Shown in pieces: positions 23,628-32,865 of a stretch of DNA of 64,000 nucleotides. Source of the stretch: Terriglobia bacterium. Lineage in GTDB: Bacteria > Acidobacteriota > Terriglobia > Bryobacterales > Bryobacteraceae. The stretch spans positions 1 through 64,000 of the forward strand of contig JAJPJN010000144.1 of assembly GCA_021324185.1 (NCBI GenBank). Reading direction: 5' to 3'. Position numbers and translations under genes: made by a program. The notes under the pieces were generated by a model, which saw only the letters and a list, made by a program, of their open reading frames with translations, did no database searches and was not told where the DNA came from. How positions within the stretch are numbered: the stretch's first letter is position 1; the number at the start of each line of letters is the position of its first letter.

Positions 23628-24344
23628 TTATGCGGGGACGCGGGACGCCTGGCGCGTTTCGCGTTCCGCCGCGATTTCCGCTAGAATTTGCCGGCAGGCC
23701 GCGGCGGGGTCGGCAGCGCGCGTAATCTGGCGGCCGATGACGAGGTAATCGGCGCCGGCGCGGATCGCTTCAGCGGGAGTCGCCACGCGCTTCTGATCGC
23801 CTAGCGATGCGCCTGCGGAACGAACGCCCGGGATCACCAGCTTTAGATCGGGTCCTGCAATCTGCCGGACCTGCGCCACTTCGAGCGGCGAACAGACAAT
23901 GCCGTCGACGCCCGCTTCCACTGCCTTTCTCACGCGCAGCGCAACCACTTCGGAAAGAGCCGCAGTGATGCCCAGATCGGCCAGGTCATTCTGATCAAAA
24001 CTCGTCAGGACTGTGACCGCAAGAATCTTGACGTTGGAACTGGCTCGTCCTTCGACAGCCGCCTGCATGAGAATCCGGCTGGCATGCACAGTTAAGAACG
24101 TGACCGCGCCGGATTCGCAGATGCGCCGGGTGGCCCGCTTCACGGTCTCCGCGATGTCATAGAGCTTCAGATCGAGAAAGACCTGCTTGCCCAGCCCGCT
24201 GACCTGCTTAACAAAATCCATTCCGGCAGCCGCATACAACTCCATTCCAACCTTGTAGAAATCAGCCGCCGGGCCGATCCGCTCGATCAGTTCCAGCGCA
24301 TCCTTCCGGCTCTCGACATCGAGTGCAACGATAACGGGATTCAG
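23628..24344 (-). CDS. pyrF: Orotidine 5'-phosphate decarboxylase, probable CTG start
   Basis: Catalyses OMP to UMP in pyrimidine synthesis. The catalytic signature DLKLYDIAETV (Lys and Asp) is present, with later IPGVRSAGASLGDQKR and YLVIGRQITRA phosphate-binding strands. The conserved first strand NPVIVALDV lies upstream of any ATG, GTG or TTG in this frame: the next in-frame upstream codons are GGT GAC ACA after a TGA. The only start giving the complete family length (238 residues) is CTG at 24344, which overlaps the selD stop (CTGA) and has GAGGTGA at good spacing. The first internal ATG (24245) would delete the first beta strand and its active-site Asp. Confidence 0.9.
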   Translation of the reverse strand: MNPVIVALDVESRKDALELIERIGPAADFYKVGMELYAAAGMDFVKQVSGLGKQVFLDLKLYDIAETVKRATRRICESGAVTFLTVHASRILMQAAVEGRASSNVKILAVTVLTSFDQNDLADLGITAALSEVVALRVRKAVEAGVDGIVCSPLEVAQVRQIAGPDLKLVIPGVRSAGASLGDQKRVATPAEAIRAGADYLVIGRQITRAADPAAACRQILAEIAAERETRQASRVPA

Positions 24345-25375
24345 TGTGTCACCTCAATGGGTTTTTCGCCGCGTTCTCTGACGCGGCCGATTACGTAGCC
24401 GTCCGGATATCGTGATAACAATTGTTCTGCTTCGGACTCCGCGAGGCTGGCAAGCAGGCCTCCCGAAGTCTGCGGGTCGTATAAGAGCGCTTGAATCTCG
24501 TGGGGAATTTCACCGGCCATGCGAACACAGCTTTCCACAAAATCACGATTGTTATGCAAGCCGCCCGAATAACAGCGCATCTGCGAATACTCAATTGCGC
24601 CGGGCAGAAAGCGCACGGCGCTGGCTGAGATTTCGAGTGTCGCACCACTCGCTAGGGCCATCTCACGCGCATGGCCGAGCAGGCCGAAGCCGGTGACATC
24701 CGTACAAGCATGAACGTCGAGCGAAAGCAAGGCTTCGCAAGCGGCGCGGTTCAGCTTTAGCATCTGCTCGATCGAAGCATCGAGGTCATGCGGTTTCGCC
24801 AAACCCTTTTTCAGCGCAGTAGAGATAACGCCGGTTCCTATGCGCTTGGTAAACACGAGCACGTCACCGGGCTTTGCTCTTGTGTTGGTCCAAATTTTTT
24901 GCGGATGGACGACTCCGGTCACGGCGTAGCCGAACTTGATCTCCTCCTCTGAGATGCTATGGCCTCCTAAGATAACGGCACCGGATTCGTGAATCTTATC
25001 CGCGCCGCCTTTGAGAATGGCTTCGAGTTCGGAAATGTCGCCTTTGCCCGGAAAGACAACGAGCGAGAGTGCCGTAATGGGGCGGCCGCCCATGGCATAC
25101 ACATCGCTCAATGCGTTCGCTGCGGCAATGGCGCCGAACGTGTAAGGATCGTCGACAATGGGCGTGAAGAAATCGACCGTTTGTACGATCGCCAGCGCTT
25201 TTCCGGCCGCTTCCGTGAGGTCATAAACACCCGCGTCGTCGGCTGTGTCGTAGCCCACGAGAACTTTTTCGTTGGTGACGCGAGGAACCGATTGTAGCGC
25301 CCGATCGAGGATTTTCGGGCTGAGCTTGGATGCGCATCCGCCGGCTTTGGTGTTAGCTGTTAGTCGCGTTGCCAT
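24341..25375 (-). CDS. selD: Selenide, water dikinase (selenophosphate synthetase)
   Basis: Makes selenophosphate from selenide and ATP, the selenium donor for selenocysteine and selenouridine. A 344-residue protein, normal length. The active-site loop near the N-terminus (KAGGCASKLSP) has catalytic Cys14 and Lys17 corresponding to Cys17 and Lys20 of the E. coli enzyme, so this is the Cys form, not a selenoprotein itself. Further signatures: VDFFTPIVDDPYTFG, NALSDVYAMGG, GGHSISEEEIKFG, TDVTGFGLLGHA and DPQTSGGLL. It overlaps pyrF by 4 bp and follows the AddA-like gene by 15 bp. The selenoprotein gene is three genes upstream. Confidence 0.96.
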   Translation of the reverse strand: MATRLTANTKAGGCASKLSPKILDRALQSVPRVTNEKVLVGYDTADDAGVYDLTEAAGKALAIVQTVDFFTPIVDDPYTFGAIAAANALSDVYAMGGRPITALSLVVFPGKGDISELEAILKGGADKIHESGAVILGGHSISEEEIKFGYAVTGVVHPQKIWTNTRAKPGDVLVFTKRIGTGVISTALKKGLAKPHDLDASIEQMLKLNRAACEALLSLDVHACTDVTGFGLLGHAREMALASGATLEISASAVRFLPGAIEYSQMRCYSGGLHNNRDFVESCVRMAGEIPHEIQALLYDPQTSGGLLASLAESEAEQLLSRYPDGYVIGRVRERGEKPIEVTH

Positions 25376-25390
25376 TCAAGACCAGTGTAG

Positions 25391-28336
25391 TCACGCGGTG
25401 AGAGCAGCCTCTTCGGCAAACTCCCACTCGCGCCAACCACCATCCAGAAGAGGAAAATACAGCCCGAGGGAAATCGGCCCTTGTTCCATACGCGAGATCA
25501 GGGCTGCATAATTTTCAAGCTGGGGACGATATCGACGCTGCTCCTCGTTCAAGAACGTTTCCCGATTTCCACCTTTGTGTTCGCCGGTCTTGTAGTCGAT
25601 GATCCACAACCGTCCATCTGCGTCCCGGAAAATACGATCGATGGCGCCACTGACAAGCTGATCTTTGATACGTCCCGCAATCTGGTACTCGGAACGGGAA
25701 TTCGCGTGCGGCGATAAAATCCAGCGGCCGCGTTCGGTTTCCAAAGCATTCTTCACGGCGGCAACGACTTTCGACACCGCCTTCTTCACGTCATCGCGAG
25801 CAACGCCGAGCAGCAATAACTCGGAGGCGATCATCCTTTCCGATGAGCGCAGACGTTCGGCATTCCACTTTTCAATTCCGTCCGAGCAAATTCGATTCAG
25901 CAGCCGGTGCACGACCGTTCCGGTATAACGCGCGGCGCCTTTGGCCCACTCATAGGTGACATTCTGAGTAGAGGCTGCCGCTTCGCGCAATTCTTGCTGC
26001 CAATCAACAGAACGCTCGAACTGAGGAGCTTGCCAGTGTCGTGGAAGCCGGCGCAGTATGGTTTTGGGCGCCTGTCTCAACTCGGATTTCTGCGCAGTTG
26101 ACGTAGTACGCCGCAGAACCTTTTCGAACTCGCCGCTGACGGAGTCCCAGATTATTTTGAGAAACGTCCCTTCGCCGGCTTTTTGACACTCGCGGCCGTC
26201 TTTTTTACTTTTCGCGCTGCCGAGAAGATAGAGTCTGTTCCTGGCACGCGTGCAGGCCACATAAAAGACGCGTTTGAGCTCATGCTCTTCCTTGGCCTTA
26301 AGGGCATCGCGCACCTCCCGGTATTGCTGGTCTTCCTTTCCTGTTTGCGGCATGGCCGCGATTCTGAGCTGCGGCAGCCCATCTTCGCCGAGTTCTTCGG
26401 TCCAGATCAACAGGTCTTTATCAAGCCGCTGTGTTTTTCTTGAAAGCTGCGGGAGGATGACCGTATCGAATTCGAGCCCCTTGGCCTGGAAGATGGTCAT
26501 CACCTGGACGCAGTTGGGCGCAACGGCAGGCTTGGCATAGAGCTTTTCCAATCGCTTCGCGAGCAGGCCGAAATCCATAGTTGTCCCGCTTTGTTCTTCC
26601 GCTTCGATGAGCCCCAGCACGGTCTCGACATCTTCAAACTCGTTTTTCTGAGGCAACACCGCCGGCCCGCCGAGCGCGATCCAAGCCTCCTCGACCACAT
26701 TCCGCAGCCGTACCCGCCCGGCTTTTTGAACAGCCGCGCTCAAAATTTCCTGGGCTCGCACGGCTCGGAATCGCCCGTCCGGCGATAGCCGCGCGATCAT
26801 CCCGGGGTCCGATATCAAATCAAGTATGGTGCGGTCTGGCTCGCCTTCGGCAAGAGCACACAGATCAGCTACGGTCAAGCCGCACCAGGGCGCGCGCAGG
26901 CAAGCCAGCCAGGAAGCGCGGTCGCTGAGGTGCAGGATGGCGCGCGTTAGCGCGATCACATCGATGACGTGCTGCTGATCAGTCAAGCGATCGATCTCGA
27001 CCGCCTCGTAATCGATGTGCGCCTCGCGCAGCGCCGGCAAAATTTCCGCCAGGTGATTGCGACTGCGCACGAGGATCGCTACGCTTCCTTCCGGCTGCGC
27101 CTGCCGCACCAGATCGACCACCTGTGCAGCCTCCCTGCGGCCATCGTCGTTAACGAAACAACAACATTGCGGCGCATTGCCGCCCGCCGGCCGGTCGGCT
27201 TGCGAGGGCCGAAATCGGACCGCGCCGGCGAAGCGGTCCTCGATCGACATGGCGCGGCCGAATTGTTCCTGCACCCATTCGAGAATCTCCGGCGTACAAC
27301 GAAAATTGGTGGCTAGCGTCACGCGCTCCAGGGAAACCGCGCCCAGCGCCTGTTCATCCCAGCAGCGCAGAAACAGCGCGACCTCGGCCTCGCGAAAGCG
27401 ATAGATGCTCTGCATGGGATCACCCACCAGAAACAATGAATGCTCGTCGCCGGCCGACCACTGTGCCGTGAGCGCCTCCAGCAGATTGTACTGAGCGCGC
27501 GATGTATCCTGAAATTCGTCTACGAGGAGATGCTCGATGCGGTAGTCCAGCCAGTAGAGTAGATCGCTGGGCTTTTCAGGCGAACCGAGCGCATGGATGG
27601 CGGCTTGCGTGATCTCGCTGAAATCGACGACTCGCTGTTCGCGAAAGACCTCCCTGAGGGCCTTGTGCGCTTCGTCTAACAAGCGACGGAAGCGTTTGAC
27701 CAAATCCGGATGCTCACCGGACCGCAAAGACTGCCATTGGTCGCGCTTCTGCAGCATGCGGACGATCTGCTCTTCTAATGCCGGCGCATTGTTGTCGAAA
27801 TAAGTGACTACGGAACGAAACAGTTCCTGGCTATCTTCGTTGCCTTCGGTCAACATGCGCAACGTGCGCCGGGCCGCCATGCGATACAGATCGGCCGCGT
27901 CTTCAAGCACATTCATGTGGCCGCCAAAACCGGATGTCACCGGCATCTGGTGCGTCAGGAACGAGCAGAGCGCATCGATGGTGTAGACCTGCAGACGGCT
28001 CGGATCCATCAGCAGATTCCAGCCCCTGGCGGCATTTCGAGCAAGCGTGTCGAGTGCAAGGCGGCGCGTATGCTGTTCATATTCGTTCTGCACGGCCGCT
28101 CCATTGGCGGCGGCCCTCAGCGCGTCGAAGATGCGGTCCCGCATTTCGGCGGCAGCCTTGCGCGTGAATGTGACCGCCACAACCGATTCGGGACGTTCCA
28201 CCACGGCCAGCAGCCGCAGAAAGCGCTGCGTTAGCAGGCCGGTCTTGCCGCTGCCCGCCGGGGCCTGAACAATGAACGATCGCGAGGGATCAATCGCGCG
28301 CTCGCGCTCGCCTAAATCAATCATCCAGCCGGTCAC
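25391..28336 (-). CDS. addA: AddA-like UvrD/RecB helicase-nuclease
   Basis: A 981-residue DNA repair enzyme. Walker A APAGSGKTG is at residues 25-32; motif Ia is TFTRKAAAEMRDR, the Walker B region VDEFQDTSRAQY, motif III GDPMQSIYRFR, motif V VMTIFQAKGLEFDTV and motif VI VFYVACTRARNRLYLLG. The C-terminal PD-(D/E)xK nuclease is intact (GAIDRIFRDADGRLWIIDYKTG). Such proteins unwind and resect double-strand breaks. GTG at 28336 (or ATG 28324) overlaps the end of the AddB-like gene, so the two are translated together as a heterodimer. Confidence 0.92.
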   Translation of the reverse strand: MTGWMIDLGERERAIDPSRSFIVQAPAGSGKTGLLTQRFLRLLAVVERPESVVAVTFTRKAAAEMRDRIFDALRAAANGAAVQNEYEQHTRRLALDTLARNAARGWNLLMDPSRLQVYTIDALCSFLTHQMPVTSGFGGHMNVLEDAADLYRMAARRTLRMLTEGNEDSQELFRSVVTYFDNNAPALEEQIVRMLQKRDQWQSLRSGEHPDLVKRFRRLLDEAHKALREVFREQRVVDFSEITQAAIHALGSPEKPSDLLYWLDYRIEHLLVDEFQDTSRAQYNLLEALTAQWSAGDEHSLFLVGDPMQSIYRFREAEVALFLRCWDEQALGAVSLERVTLATNFRCTPEILEWVQEQFGRAMSIEDRFAGAVRFRPSQADRPAGGNAPQCCCFVNDDGRREAAQVVDLVRQAQPEGSVAILVRSRNHLAEILPALREAHIDYEAVEIDRLTDQQHVIDVIALTRAILHLSDRASWLACLRAPWCGLTVADLCALAEGEPDRTILDLISDPGMIARLSPDGRFRAVRAQEILSAAVQKAGRVRLRNVVEEAWIALGGPAVLPQKNEFEDVETVLGLIEAEEQSGTTMDFGLLAKRLEKLYAKPAVAPNCVQVMTIFQAKGLEFDTVILPQLSRKTQRLDKDLLIWTEELGEDGLPQLRIAAMPQTGKEDQQYREVRDALKAKEEHELKRVFYVACTRARNRLYLLGSAKSKKDGRECQKAGEGTFLKIIWDSVSGEFEKVLRRTTSTAQKSELRQAPKTILRRLPRHWQAPQFERSVDWQQELREAAASTQNVTYEWAKGAARYTGTVVHRLLNRICSDGIEKWNAERLRSSERMIASELLLLGVARDDVKKAVSKVVAAVKNALETERGRWILSPHANSRSEYQIAGRIKDQLVSGAIDRIFRDADGRLWIIDYKTGEHKGGNRETFLNEEQRRYRPQLENYAALISRMEQGPISLGLYFPLLDGGWREWEFAEEAALTA

Positions 28337-30908
28337 CGTTTCTGCTGCGCCGCGCCTCGTTGATGCGGCACAGTGGTTTCACATCGCAGAAGTCGCAGGC
28401 GTGTGGAAGAGGATCTACTGCGGCCTCGCCCCTGGCAAATGATTCTGCGAGGCGTTCGACCACGGCGATCCGATCTTGCATATATTCGTTCCAATCCAGA
28501 TCTTGAGCCGGCTGCTTTTGGCCGTCCACATGAATCTCGCGAGCATACCCGGCCAATTTCGGCTCACGCGGCTTCAATTGCGCGAAAAACAGGCCGTCCA
28601 CTTCCTCGCGCATCGCCGCCGCATAGGCGAGCAGTTGAGGTTCGTTCGGACGATCACCATTCAGATTTTTTTCCGAAGTGTCACCGCTCTTGTAGTCAAT
28701 CAGCAGGCACCTGCCGTTCTCCAGGCGGTCGATACGGTCGATGCGAATGTCGAGATGCAAACCGGCAATATCCAACCCGCGCTGCTGTTCCGTAATTTCA
28801 ACTTCGAACGGCTTCTTCCGGCGATACTCAATGTCAAGCCACGCCGAGATGACCTCCGCCAGCCTGCTGGTCTCAACGAACGATAACTGTTGATGCAGCG
28901 GACCGCGATCCCGCACCGAAACCGCCGAGTTCACCGCATCATGAATCAGAAACTGCAATTCCAGAGGCTTGATCTGGCGCAGGGCTTCTTGCGTTTTCAG
29001 TTGCTCCCAGATAATGCGCAGCGCCTCGTGGACGAAACTGCCCCGGTCGCGGCTGTCCAAGCCAAATGCTGCATCCTCAGGACAACGCGCATTCAGGCGG
29101 CGAATCGCAAAAGCACGGAAAGGACACTGGGACTGATCTTTGATTAATCCCGTACCGCCGAGTGAACCTCCCGTGTGCCGGTACGGAGGCGCATTCGTGT
29201 CTTCCCGTTGCTCGATGTCTGCTGCGCGGAAAGACTGGAGGGGAGTTCGGCCTTCCCAGGCAATCAACTCGTGCTCTCCTTTAGACAGATAGTTTTGGGC
29301 AGCAGGCAAAATGCGCCATGAATAACTGGCGCAAGCGTCCGCGGCTGCGCTAAAAAGATGCGACAGAACCTGCTGGCGGTTCTCGTGCGCCGAGCGCGCA
29401 GAAACGCCCGGAATGTCACAGGCGCGCTGCAAGCTCAGCGGGATCAGGGGAGAAGTTGAAGCAGTAAAAAAATTGTTTTCTTCCGAGAGGCCTGCAACAA
29501 AAGCGTGATCGAAGCGAAGCCCCGCGGCATCTTGCGCATCGAGCACCTGAATGGGCGACAAAAAATTGCCGGTAACTGAATAGGCTTCGTTCAATATCGA
29601 TTGCAGGTGCGTGAGAGCTTCCTGGTACGTGGCCGCCCGCGAGACCGGCGACAGCGAAGCCAGAACCGAAAGCTTGCTTTTCCACGTCTCGACCAGCTCT
29701 TCTTCTTCGAGGTTGAGAGGTGGAGGTCCGGGCCAGCCGAATGCTTCCAAAAGGTCACTGAAGAATTCGCTCCAAACGGAAAATTCGGCGGTAGCCGGCT
29801 TTTCTTTTAGAACACGCCGCACGCCCCGCAGCACGTCCTGAAATTGCGGGCAGTGCTGAGCTGCATACTCCAGATCGCGCAGATTGACATCGAGCTCGCG
29901 CGGCCGGCGCAGCCGATACTCAGCTAAAGCTCGCTCGCTTCGCTCTTCGGCGGCGCCCTGGATCCAAGGCGAGCGCAGTATGGCGCTACCTTCAGCCACC
30001 GGAATGCGCGGCAAGACGGCGTGTAAGAGCAGCAATGCTCCAGCAATGACGGGATATTCCCGCAGTGGCGGCGCGGCATGCAGATGAAAAACCGATTCAC
30101 CTCTGCGCCCGGATGGATAACAGATCTGGCTGAACATTCGCTCGACGAGATTGCGATGCTTTGCAAGGCCGGGCACAAAAATGCCGGCTGAGCAGCGCGA
30201 ATCGCGCTCGATGACGGCTCTCGCCCATCGTGCTGCGGCTTCTATTTCGAGCGCAAAGTCTTTGTACTCTCGAACGGGAATGTTTGAGGCCGGTTCGAAT
30301 TCTTCAGTGCTCAGTGCGCTCGCAGCCGGACCGAGAACTTCGCGCAACTGCCGCAAGGCCGGCGTCCAATTTGAAAATCCTGCAAACACGACGCGGTTGC
30401 TGCTGCACAACTTGGCACGAATCCAGCCTGGCGCCAGGCGCCACAAATCGGCGCTGCTGATCCAACCTTCCTCATGGCATAGCTTGCGAAACTCGGCGAG
30501 CCAGCTTCGAAACTGCCGGCCGTCCTCATGGTCATCCCAGCTCTCGTTTTCGAGCGGGATGTGCCATTCTGCTATCAGATTTGCAGCGCGGCTCGCCAGT
30601 GCGGCTGTACTTTCGATATCGAACAACGAGGGCGTCTGTTCTTCTATAATGCGCCGCCAAAGCATGTGCTCCTGCGGGCCGGATAATAGCGCCGGAATGT
30701 CTTTTCCGGCATAGCGGGCCTCCTGCCAGCAGGTTTTGAGCCACGCACCGGCATGGTAAACGTTCGGACGATTCCAACTTGTGACACCTTCGTTCAGGCG
30801 TTTGCTGCTGAACTCGTGCGAGGCGGTCTGAGCCAGAAGATAGGAGGGTGCAATGACCGTGCTCCCGGAGCCGAGCATCGGGAGCAGGCCCGGGCAAGCG
30901 AAATGCAT
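28317..30908 (-). CDS. addB: AddB-like PD-(D/E)xK nuclease subunit with iron-sulfur staple
   Basis: An 863-residue protein, partner of the AddA-like helicase. The N-terminal part is an inactivated helicase-like fold without a clear Walker A. The C-terminal nuclease has DIRIDRIDRLENGRCLLIDYKSGD, the PD-(D/E)xK core, flanked by an iron-sulfur staple: one Cys in SQCPFRAFA and three in ACDFCDVKPLCRI. This layout matches AddB and the related DNA-repair proteins often found in Proteobacteria and Acidobacteriota. It begins 11 bp after the stop of the selenoprotein gene. An in-frame ATG at residue 11 is an alternative start. Confidence 0.88.
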   Translation of the reverse strand: MHFACPGLLPMLGSGSTVIAPSYLLAQTASHEFSSKRLNEGVTSWNRPNVYHAGAWLKTCWQEARYAGKDIPALLSGPQEHMLWRRIIEEQTPSLFDIESTAALASRAANLIAEWHIPLENESWDDHEDGRQFRSWLAEFRKLCHEEGWISSADLWRLAPGWIRAKLCSSNRVVFAGFSNWTPALRQLREVLGPAASALSTEEFEPASNIPVREYKDFALEIEAAARWARAVIERDSRCSAGIFVPGLAKHRNLVERMFSQICYPSGRRGESVFHLHAAPPLREYPVIAGALLLLHAVLPRIPVAEGSAILRSPWIQGAAEERSERALAEYRLRRPRELDVNLRDLEYAAQHCPQFQDVLRGVRRVLKEKPATAEFSVWSEFFSDLLEAFGWPGPPPLNLEEEELVETWKSKLSVLASLSPVSRAATYQEALTHLQSILNEAYSVTGNFLSPIQVLDAQDAAGLRFDHAFVAGLSEENNFFTASTSPLIPLSLQRACDIPGVSARSAHENRQQVLSHLFSAAADACASYSWRILPAAQNYLSKGEHELIAWEGRTPLQSFRAADIEQREDTNAPPYRHTGGSLGGTGLIKDQSQCPFRAFAIRRLNARCPEDAAFGLDSRDRGSFVHEALRIIWEQLKTQEALRQIKPLELQFLIHDAVNSAVSVRDRGPLHQQLSFVETSRLAEVISAWLDIEYRRKKPFEVEITEQQRGLDIAGLHLDIRIDRIDRLENGRCLLIDYKSGDTSEKNLNGDRPNEPQLLAYAAAMREEVDGLFFAQLKPREPKLAGYAREIHVDGQKQPAQDLDWNEYMQDRIAVVERLAESFARGEAAVDPLPHACDFCDVKPLCRINEARRSRNGDRLDD

Positions 30909-30919
30909 TTCGAGCTGCT

Positions 30920-31585
30920 TTAAGCTTTATTATCCGCTGTGCGCTCTACTTTCAATTGTTCAAGCTGCGGAATCGTCACTGGTTGTGAGCTGCGGGTGTA
31001 CCCATAAATGGCAGATCGCTTCGCGCCTAGCGCGTGCGCCTCATCGCTCATCGGATGCACGCCGCTGGCGTCGATCCAGCGATTATAAAAATTGAACAGC
31101 GCACAAACGGTAATGGCGTAATAAATCGCTTCATCGCTGTAGCCGGCATCGTGCAGCGCGGCAATATCGGCGGGGCCGATCGTGGGCGACTCGCTATTGA
31201 CTTTTTTGACAAACCGCATCAGCGCCTTTTCCGAGTCGGAAAGAAGCGAGCTTTCGAGGTCTGTCAAGACACTCGTCACCAGCTCTTTGCTGCCGAGCAA
31301 TTCCGCCGCGACCGCGGCGTGCGATTTGGTTCAAAACGGGCAGTGATTCAGGTGCGACGTGTAGGCCGCGATGAGCTCCCGAAAACCCGGTGATAGCGGC
31401 GCCGGTTCGCGCAGTATCTCTTGCGTGAAGCGCTCCAGATGAACGGTGGCCTTCATCTTGTACGAGAACATGTGCAGAATTTGCGGATATTCCGTCATGC
31501 CGGCGCGTTTCATGGCTTCAATAGAGCGCGTGTGATTGTCGTCGCCCTGATGCTGTTGAACGTCTTTGAGAAACATGTCTTTCAT
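30920..31585 (-). CDS. AhpD-like (carboxymuconolactone decarboxylase family) selenoprotein, CxxU, read through UGA
   Basis: Two open frames, 31585-31331 and 31330-30920, are in the same frame and separated only by one TGA (31333-31331). Together they give 221 residues of the peroxidase-related AhpD-like family. The redox motif CxxCxxxH of the family appears here as C82-P-F-U85-T-K-S-H89, with TGA at the second cysteine position. The N-terminal part holds FRELIAAYTSHLNHCPF; the C-terminal part holds HAAVAAELLGSKEL, then ALHDAGYSDEAIYYAITVCA, so family homology continues across the TGA. A SECIS-like hairpin follows, and selD is nearby. It probably reduces peroxides or other oxidants. Automatic callers would split or truncate it. 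Confidence 0.88.
31304..31333 (-). promoter_or_regulatory. Bacterial SECIS-like hairpin directly after the UGA codon
   Basis: After UGA (31333-31331) come 11 bases, then the stem CGCCGC (31319-31314), a four-base loop GGUC (31313-31310) and the exact complement GCGGCG (31309-31304). The loop begins 17 bases after UGA, inside the 16-37 base range accepted for bacterial SECIS elements, and GGUC recalls the apical loop of E. coli fdhF. SelB would bind this loop. Confidence 0.75.
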
Positions 31586-31617
31586 GTGTGCTCCGGGCCG
31601 CGTAAGAGGCGTTGCTG

Positions 31618-32865
31618 TTATGAATTGTACGCCTGCGCAGATTTCTGGCGAGGCGCGCCCAGCGTCAGTTCATTGATCTGGGATTGAAACGGCGTAAGCA
31701 GTCTGAAGCCGGTCTCTGTTACCGCAACCATGTCGCAATGGCGCATGCCGCCATAATCTTCCAGATAGATAGCGGGTTCAACATTGAACACCATTCCAGG
31801 CTGAAGAACGTCTTCTGACTGTGGATGAATGCGCGGCGGCGCATTCGGACTGATCGCCCCAAAACCCACTCCGTGCCCCGTCGAATGCTTAAAGTCGCTG
31901 CCGAAACCGCGTTCCCGCAGAACCGCGCGAGCAGCCCGGTCCACATCGGCTGCCTTCACGCCTGGTGCGATGGTTTTGAGCGCCGCTTCACGCGCCGCAA
32001 ATATGGCTTCGTACATCGCCCGCCGCTTATCATCCAACTCGCCCAGCGAAAACGTCCGCGTGATGTCAGTGCAATAGCCGTTTGCAAAAGAGTTGCAGTG
32101 CACCAAAATCAAATCTCCGGTCTCAATGCGCCTGGTTGAGGAATGCGCAAAAGCGCCAGAGGCCTTGGCCGAATTCGTTCCCGACATCACGAAGACAAAC
32201 GCCTCCGCGCGCTCCACATCCGGGAAGTCTTGCAGGGCGGCAGCAAATAACTTCCGCAATTCAGCAGCGGCTTCGACCTCTGTCAGGCCGCTCCGCAACA
32301 CCTCTGCTGCCCATGCGAAGCCTCGCGCGGCGATCCGGCAGGCCGTCTCGATGCTTCCTATTTCCTCCGCGCTCTTGATGGCGCACAGATTCCGCAGCAA
32401 GTTATCCGCCGGAATAATATTCGCGGACGGCAGCGCCCTTCGGATGATCTCAGGAATTGACCCCTGATAAAGATGCATCGCCGCGTAGGAAGCCGGCTGG
32501 GTATCTGCGCCCAGCTCATATCCGATCCTTGGCTCGGAATTCAGAAGCAGTTTCAGCGTATGGCTTAATGGCTGAACCACGGTTTCCTCGGCTGTCGTGA
32601 TCTTGTCGAGCGAACTCGGTTTGAACGTCTCAATGTTTGTCGCCCGGCTTTTCGCCGCAAATGGCTTCTCGTCTTCCGGAACAATCAGGCAGACCTCGCC
32701 GTTCGAGCGGGCAACCGCCATAGACGTGCCCACAACGGGCCAATACCCCGAGAGGAGCAGAACGTGCTTGGGAAGTGCACATACGAGCCCGTCCAGGGCC
32801 GCCTTTTGCATCTGAGTTGCGATCTGCTGCTTACGATCCGGAATCATACTCGCAGGAATCTCCAT
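31618..32865 (-). CDS. M24 family metallopeptidase (Xaa-Pro aminopeptidase-like)
   Basis: A 415-residue protein with the creatinase N-terminal domain followed by a pita-bread M24 domain. Four of five metal ligands are seen: Asp in GYCTDITRTF, His in HSTGHGVGF, Glu in FNVEPAIY and Glu in VAVTETGFR. The first ligand, normally Asp eleven residues before the TDITRT Asp, is a His here (VHCNSFANGYCTD). His can bind metal, so the protein may still be active with changed preference. It should remove N-terminal residues before proline. It is the first gene of the run leading to the selenoprotein, 32 bp upstream of it. Confidence 0.88.
   Translation of the reverse strand: MEIPASMIPDRKQQIATQMQKAALDGLVCALPKHVLLLSGYWPVVGTSMAVARSNGEVCLIVPEDEKPFAAKSRATNIETFKPSSLDKITTAEETVVQPLSHTLKLLLNSEPRIGYELGADTQPASYAAMHLYQGSIPEIIRRALPSANIIPADNLLRNLCAIKSAEEIGSIETACRIAARGFAWAAEVLRSGLTEVEAAAELRKLFAAALQDFPDVERAEAFVFVMSGTNSAKASGAFAHSSTRRIETGDLILVHCNSFANGYCTDITRTFSLGELDDKRRAMYEAIFAAREAALKTIAPGVKAADVDRAARAVLRERGFGSDFKHSTGHGVGFGAISPNAPPRIHPQSEDVLQPGMVFNVEPAIYLEDYGGMRHCDMVAVTETGFRLLTPFQSQINELTLGAPRQKSAQAYNS

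Follow-up and report, generated by a model that had tools for sequence, protein, structure and literature searches.

AhpD-like proteins with a CxxU motif were described as selenoproteins from the Sargasso Sea in 2005 (PMC1088965), and 'AhpD-like protein, TIGR01926, CxxU' appears in the catalogue of prokaryotic selenoproteins given by a 2026 review (PMC13188914). The 64,000-nucleotide stretch of Bryobacteraceae DNA analyzed here, hereafter the window, contains an AhpD-like gene with an in-frame TGA that belongs to this known family. Compared by description, the gene agrees with the catalogued proteins in family, in having Sec as the last residue of the CxxC motif and in combining a UGA with a SECIS hairpin, whereas the published examples are largely from marine metagenomes and the present ones, almost exclusively in the Sec form, are from Acidobacteriota and relatives (PMC1088965, PMC13188914). 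A CMD/AhpD domain and a C-x-x-U-T motif are also shared with the AhpD_rel_CFYUT (seleno)protein NF041238; the latter is, however, a much longer protein (profile of 357 positions), against which the window protein scores 40.6 bits, under the cut-off of 175. None of the NCBIfam selenoprotein models matched by the window protein passes its cut-off. We regard the gene as a new, well-supported member of an already known selenoprotein family.

The first-pass annotation of the window, which was made from the sequence alone, had proposed an unannotated selenoprotein gene at this place. Its coordinates proved correct; the strand, which it had left unstated, is minus (Table 1). The gene starts with an ATG at 31585 and terminates with a TAA ending at 30920, and translation with the TGA counted as one residue yields 221 amino acids and no further stop. 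The second half of the open reading frame begins immediately 3' of the TGA, which places both frames in phase, as had been claimed. The joined protein scores 99.4 bits in TIGR01926, above the curated cut-off of 81.8, and also matches Pfam CMD; the homology spans the TGA, as the annotation had said. The first half alone matches no NCBIfam model and the second half alone reaches 61.2 bits in TIGR01926. Because neither half attains the cut-off of that family, the warning that automatic callers would produce two fragments is a sound expectation. The TGA lies within H81-C82-P-F-U85-T-K-S-H89, exactly where the first pass had located it, in place of the second redox Cys in the CxxCxxxH motif. The triplet at 31333 to 31331 is almost certainly a selenocysteine codon and not a stop.

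Table 1. Features of the AhpD-like locus and its surroundings in the window.
Feature	Position	Strand	Remarks
selD (selenide, water dikinase), Cys form	24341..25375	-	TIGR00476, 364.5 bits; third gene downstream
UvrD-family helicase/nuclease (AddA-like)	25391..28336	-	neighbor outside the finding
PD-(D/E)XK nuclease (AddB-like)	28317..30908	-	next gene downstream, 11 nt gap; neighbor outside the finding
AhpD-like selenoprotein gene (peroxidase-related, TIGR01926/PF02627)	30920..31585	-	221 residues, Sec at residue 85
Bacterial SECIS hairpin CGCCGC-GGUC-GCGGCG	31304..31319	-	loop 17 nt after UGA
In-frame TGA, taken as selenocysteine	31331..31333	-	U85 of C82-P-F-U85-T-K-S-H89
GGAG, Shine-Dalgarno-like	31591..31594	-	5 nt 5' of the ATG at 31585; read directly from the sequence
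M24 family peptidase	31618..32865	-	upstream gene, 32 nt gap; neighbor outside the finding

Relatives of the gene were collected from two whole-genome surveys, one of 60 relatives and the other of 297 genomes from the phylum, in which matches at E 1e-45 or better comprised 32 Sec and 4 Cys forms (the window itself excluded). A scan of the genome_contigs collection kept 80 loci, all 80 with a TGA at the codon position, while an exact-DNA scan of the same collection gave no match; some of these loci overlap the survey genomes, and identical sequences were counted once. The resulting alignment holds 92 distinct Sec homologues with TGA, that of the window included, and four Cys homologues with TGC (L130, L046, L133, and L043; 47-52% identity), which answers the check on a Cys or TGA in relatives that the first pass had recommended. 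Glu70, Cys82, Phe84, and His89 are unchanging across all 92 Sec and 4 Cys proteins aligned. The TGA is kept across several Acidobacteriota families and also on contigs labelled as Gemmatimonadota or other phyla. Seven Sec homologues (L109, L117, L120, L125, L091, L108, and L072) lie on contigs filed as Gemmatimonadota, Proteobacteria, Cyanobacteria, or Chthoniobacterales, which reflects either cross-phylum transfer or misfiled metagenome bins. At three loci (L078, L045, and L116) the Sec gene stands in tandem 3' of CxxC AhpD-like paralogues with the same orientation; the equivalent, third place of such an AhpD triplet is taken by the Cys form in L046.

The bacterial SECIS model specifies a stem of 4-16 bp, a loop of 3-9 nt placed 16-37 nt after the UGA with a G within its first two positions, and a folding energy of -7.5 kcal/mol or lower (PMC13188914). 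The hairpin noticed in the first pass agrees with the model throughout: six Watson-Crick pairs closed by the 4-nt loop GGUC, with stem and loop beginning 11 and 17 nt past the UGA, respectively, and an energy of -10.8 kcal/mol. The model is likewise satisfied by 84 of the 87 distinct Sec sequences. While this geometry holds as first described, the hairpin by itself is unconvincing, because the folding energy of the whole 81-nt stretch is no lower than that of its shuffles (z 0.33) and the Ala-Ala-Val-Ala-Ala codons already dictate four of the six base pairs. Regional folding energy, not significant against shuffles, was dropped as evidence, and we therefore examined pairs of third codon positions, at which the DNA is free to vary synonymously.

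When the 1110 third-position pairs in the 87 distinct Sec sequences were ranked by mutual information, +18/+21, +15/+24, and +12/+27 came out as numbers 1 to 3; these are exactly the pair that closes the hairpin loop and the two stem pairs that are free to vary. Positions +18/+21 read G-C in 54 sequences, A-T in 32, and C-T in one, and +15/+24 read C-G in 81 and T-A in six. Mapped onto a 96-row protein tree, the +18/+21 pair requires 18 changes, as does each of its sides alone; for +15/+24 the pair and its two sides gave 8, 8, and 8 changes. Such equal counts indicate that the two sides changed jointly many times and not once in an ancestor. The exact number depends on the tree, for which support is modest: another tree restricted to strongly supported branches left few independent pairs, five for covariation, none against, and one neutral. 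As judged from these alignments, the pattern is the one that selection on an RNA hairpin would be expected to leave, and not one expected from protein constraint. Of all the evidence for the selenocysteine reading, this comparison of relatives weighs most. Of 93 Sec sequences, 84 form the full stem; all 12 Cys sequences (the four homologues plus eight more distant paralogues) lack it, and the mean hairpin energy is -10.2 kcal/mol for Sec versus -1.8 kcal/mol for Cys. In L136, a divergent Sec homologue, Thr replaces Val (AATAA) and the hairpin loop lacks the usual G-U; it has either another SECIS type or a differently placed loop.

The selA, selB, and selC genes that the first pass had asked to be sought elsewhere are all encoded in the genome of the window together with selD (SelA, 500.9 bits; SelB, 376.7 bits; tRNA-Sec with anticodon UCA, 72 bits). 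The SelD active site in the window reads G-G-C-A-S-K, which we take to retain one Cys of the E. coli enzyme with the second being Ser. The same genome encodes a second selenoprotein, the formate dehydrogenase alpha subunit FdhA (L137, contig C68:10053-13100), with an in-frame TGA in ARIU-HSSTV, where proteins of that family normally carry Sec, followed by a strong hairpin, GGTCCCCAGTTTGGGGACC. The machinery and FdhA together establish that a Sec system is present with at least one classical client. Among the four Cys carriers, the one-contig genome G276 has neither SelB nor tRNA-Sec and the remaining three have the Sec machinery. Three Sec-bearing drafts (G010, G019, and G034), each of hundreds of contigs, show no clear SelB and all have tRNA-Sec. 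Because SelB (50) and SelA (56) are common among the 60 relatives, including genomes without the AhpD-like Sec gene, their co-occurrence with it alone discriminates poorly.

The AlphaFold model of the protein is all-helical and AhpD-like with a mean pLDDT of 90, and its best structural matches are the AhpD-like peroxidase-related structures 6k40 (D. radiodurans), 3c1l (Mlr4105), 2prr, 2oyo, and 2pfx. The predicted fold is common to about 175 residues of these proteins at 20-28% identity, and all five carry Cys at the Sec position of the window protein. The CxxC...H active site is aligned in the printed alignments of 3c1l and 6k40, and phmmer likewise aligned U85 to the second catalytic Cys of 3c1l. 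The proton relay of M. tuberculosis AhpD consists of Glu118, Cys130, His132, Cys133, and His137 (PMC3141380). Glu70, Cys82, Sec85, and His89 follow the order Glu, Cys, Cys, His of that enzyme (1gu9) with equal spacing of 12, 3, and 4, although the overall structural match is weak (E 0.15). The sole difference is in the fifth relay residue, between the two Cys (His132/Tyr50), which is Phe84 in the window protein.

The genes around the locus are a local arrangement, since they almost never occur in the flanks of the 80 related loci. The M24 peptidase and the AddA- and AddB-like genes are absent from all of these flanks, and were rejected as functional partners because they lie near no relative. 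The first pass had cited selD three genes downstream as support; its position and strand are as reported, but it recurs in the fetched flank of only one of the 80 loci (L057), and its proximity adds little and was rejected as evidence. At 34 of the 80 loci (e.g., L096:5594-6817) the AhpD-like gene is followed directly, in the same orientation, by an MFS transporter (Pfam MFS_1), which is not among the genes adjoining it in the window. No ahpC was found among the adjacent window genes examined.

Several other accounts of the in-frame TGA were weighed. The window comes from a draft assembly of 184 contigs, in which a sequencing or assembly error might have replaced a true TGC or TGT; independent projects, however, have recovered the same TGA in over 90 distinct homologues, some of them on long contigs or in a nearly complete genome (L096, L124). 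It is therefore not a read error, which leaves this account with a negligible probability. The second half by itself resembles a truncated open reading frame, as it would in a pseudogene cut by a nonsense mutation. Yet changes relative to relatives 3' of the TGA are mostly at third positions (e.g., 66 at position 3 against 19 and 18 at positions 1 and 2), and the invariant residues C161, F164, W170, and G175 persist beyond it. Conservation of the TGA itself and covariation of the synonymous hairpin pairs also speak against a pseudogene, to which we give next to no credence. Some UGA read-through occurs in many bacteria, and the 84-residue fragment upstream begins at a start codon preceded by a Shine-Dalgarno-like sequence, features that would suit insertion of a different residue at the UGA (near-cognate Trp or Cys), or regulated termination with a functional short product. 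Both are very improbable, given a UGA exactly at the redox Cys of homologues, a SECIS-like hairpin under selection, and a genome that encodes a second, canonical selenoprotein besides the Sec machinery; the short fragment, moreover, would contain only half of the active site.

A different question is whether a real selenoprotein of this kind has peroxide reduction as its main role. It might instead be a disulfide reductase or adaptor, or catalyze reductive dehalogenation like the AhpD-like debrominase Bmp8. Bmp8 (6ohi, 6ohj) is among the structural matches, the Cys-containing relative PA0269 reduces H2O2 only weakly (PMC3141380), and the MFS transporter that adjoins the gene in 34 of the 80 loci gives a hint of a small molecule as substrate. 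The Bmp8 matches, however, rank far below the peroxidase-related structures, and the adjacent window genes offer no dehalogenation context. We consider a non-peroxidase role a serious possibility but not the favored one.

With high confidence, we read the gene as encoding an AhpD-like thiol-selenol oxidoreductase in which UGA85 is decoded as selenocysteine. In the cell, SelB and tRNA-Sec would carry out this decoding, directed by the hairpin that lies within the coding sequence from 11 nt downstream and presents G-U at its loop tip. In the proton-relay site of AhpD (here Glu70, Cys82, Sec85, and His89), Sec85 would thereby stand in for the second catalytic Cys. The Sec85 selenolate would attack peroxide, probably the likeliest substrate, or another oxidized substrate; Cys82 may then resolve the intermediate as a selenenylsulfide, from which a thiol partner would regenerate the reduced enzyme.

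Our search, limited and of partial literature, found no description of this selenoprotein in Bryobacterales, and the widespread, almost exclusively Sec clade in this order and its relatives may be new. More tentatively, and with considerable doubt, we suggest that Acidobacteriota possess an almost exclusively Sec subfamily of their own (C-P-F-U-x3-H-A-A-V-A-A), in which protein and SECIS constrain each other and which, together with the MFS transporter alongside, would handle one particular small molecule and not be a general peroxidase. The clade is prone to truncation or splitting by standard annotation. The gene adds a clear, testable selenoprotein to the Acidobacteriota, and the Sec and Cys homologues that can be paired, among them those in AhpD triplets, provide natural material on what Sec brings to an AhpD-like enzyme.
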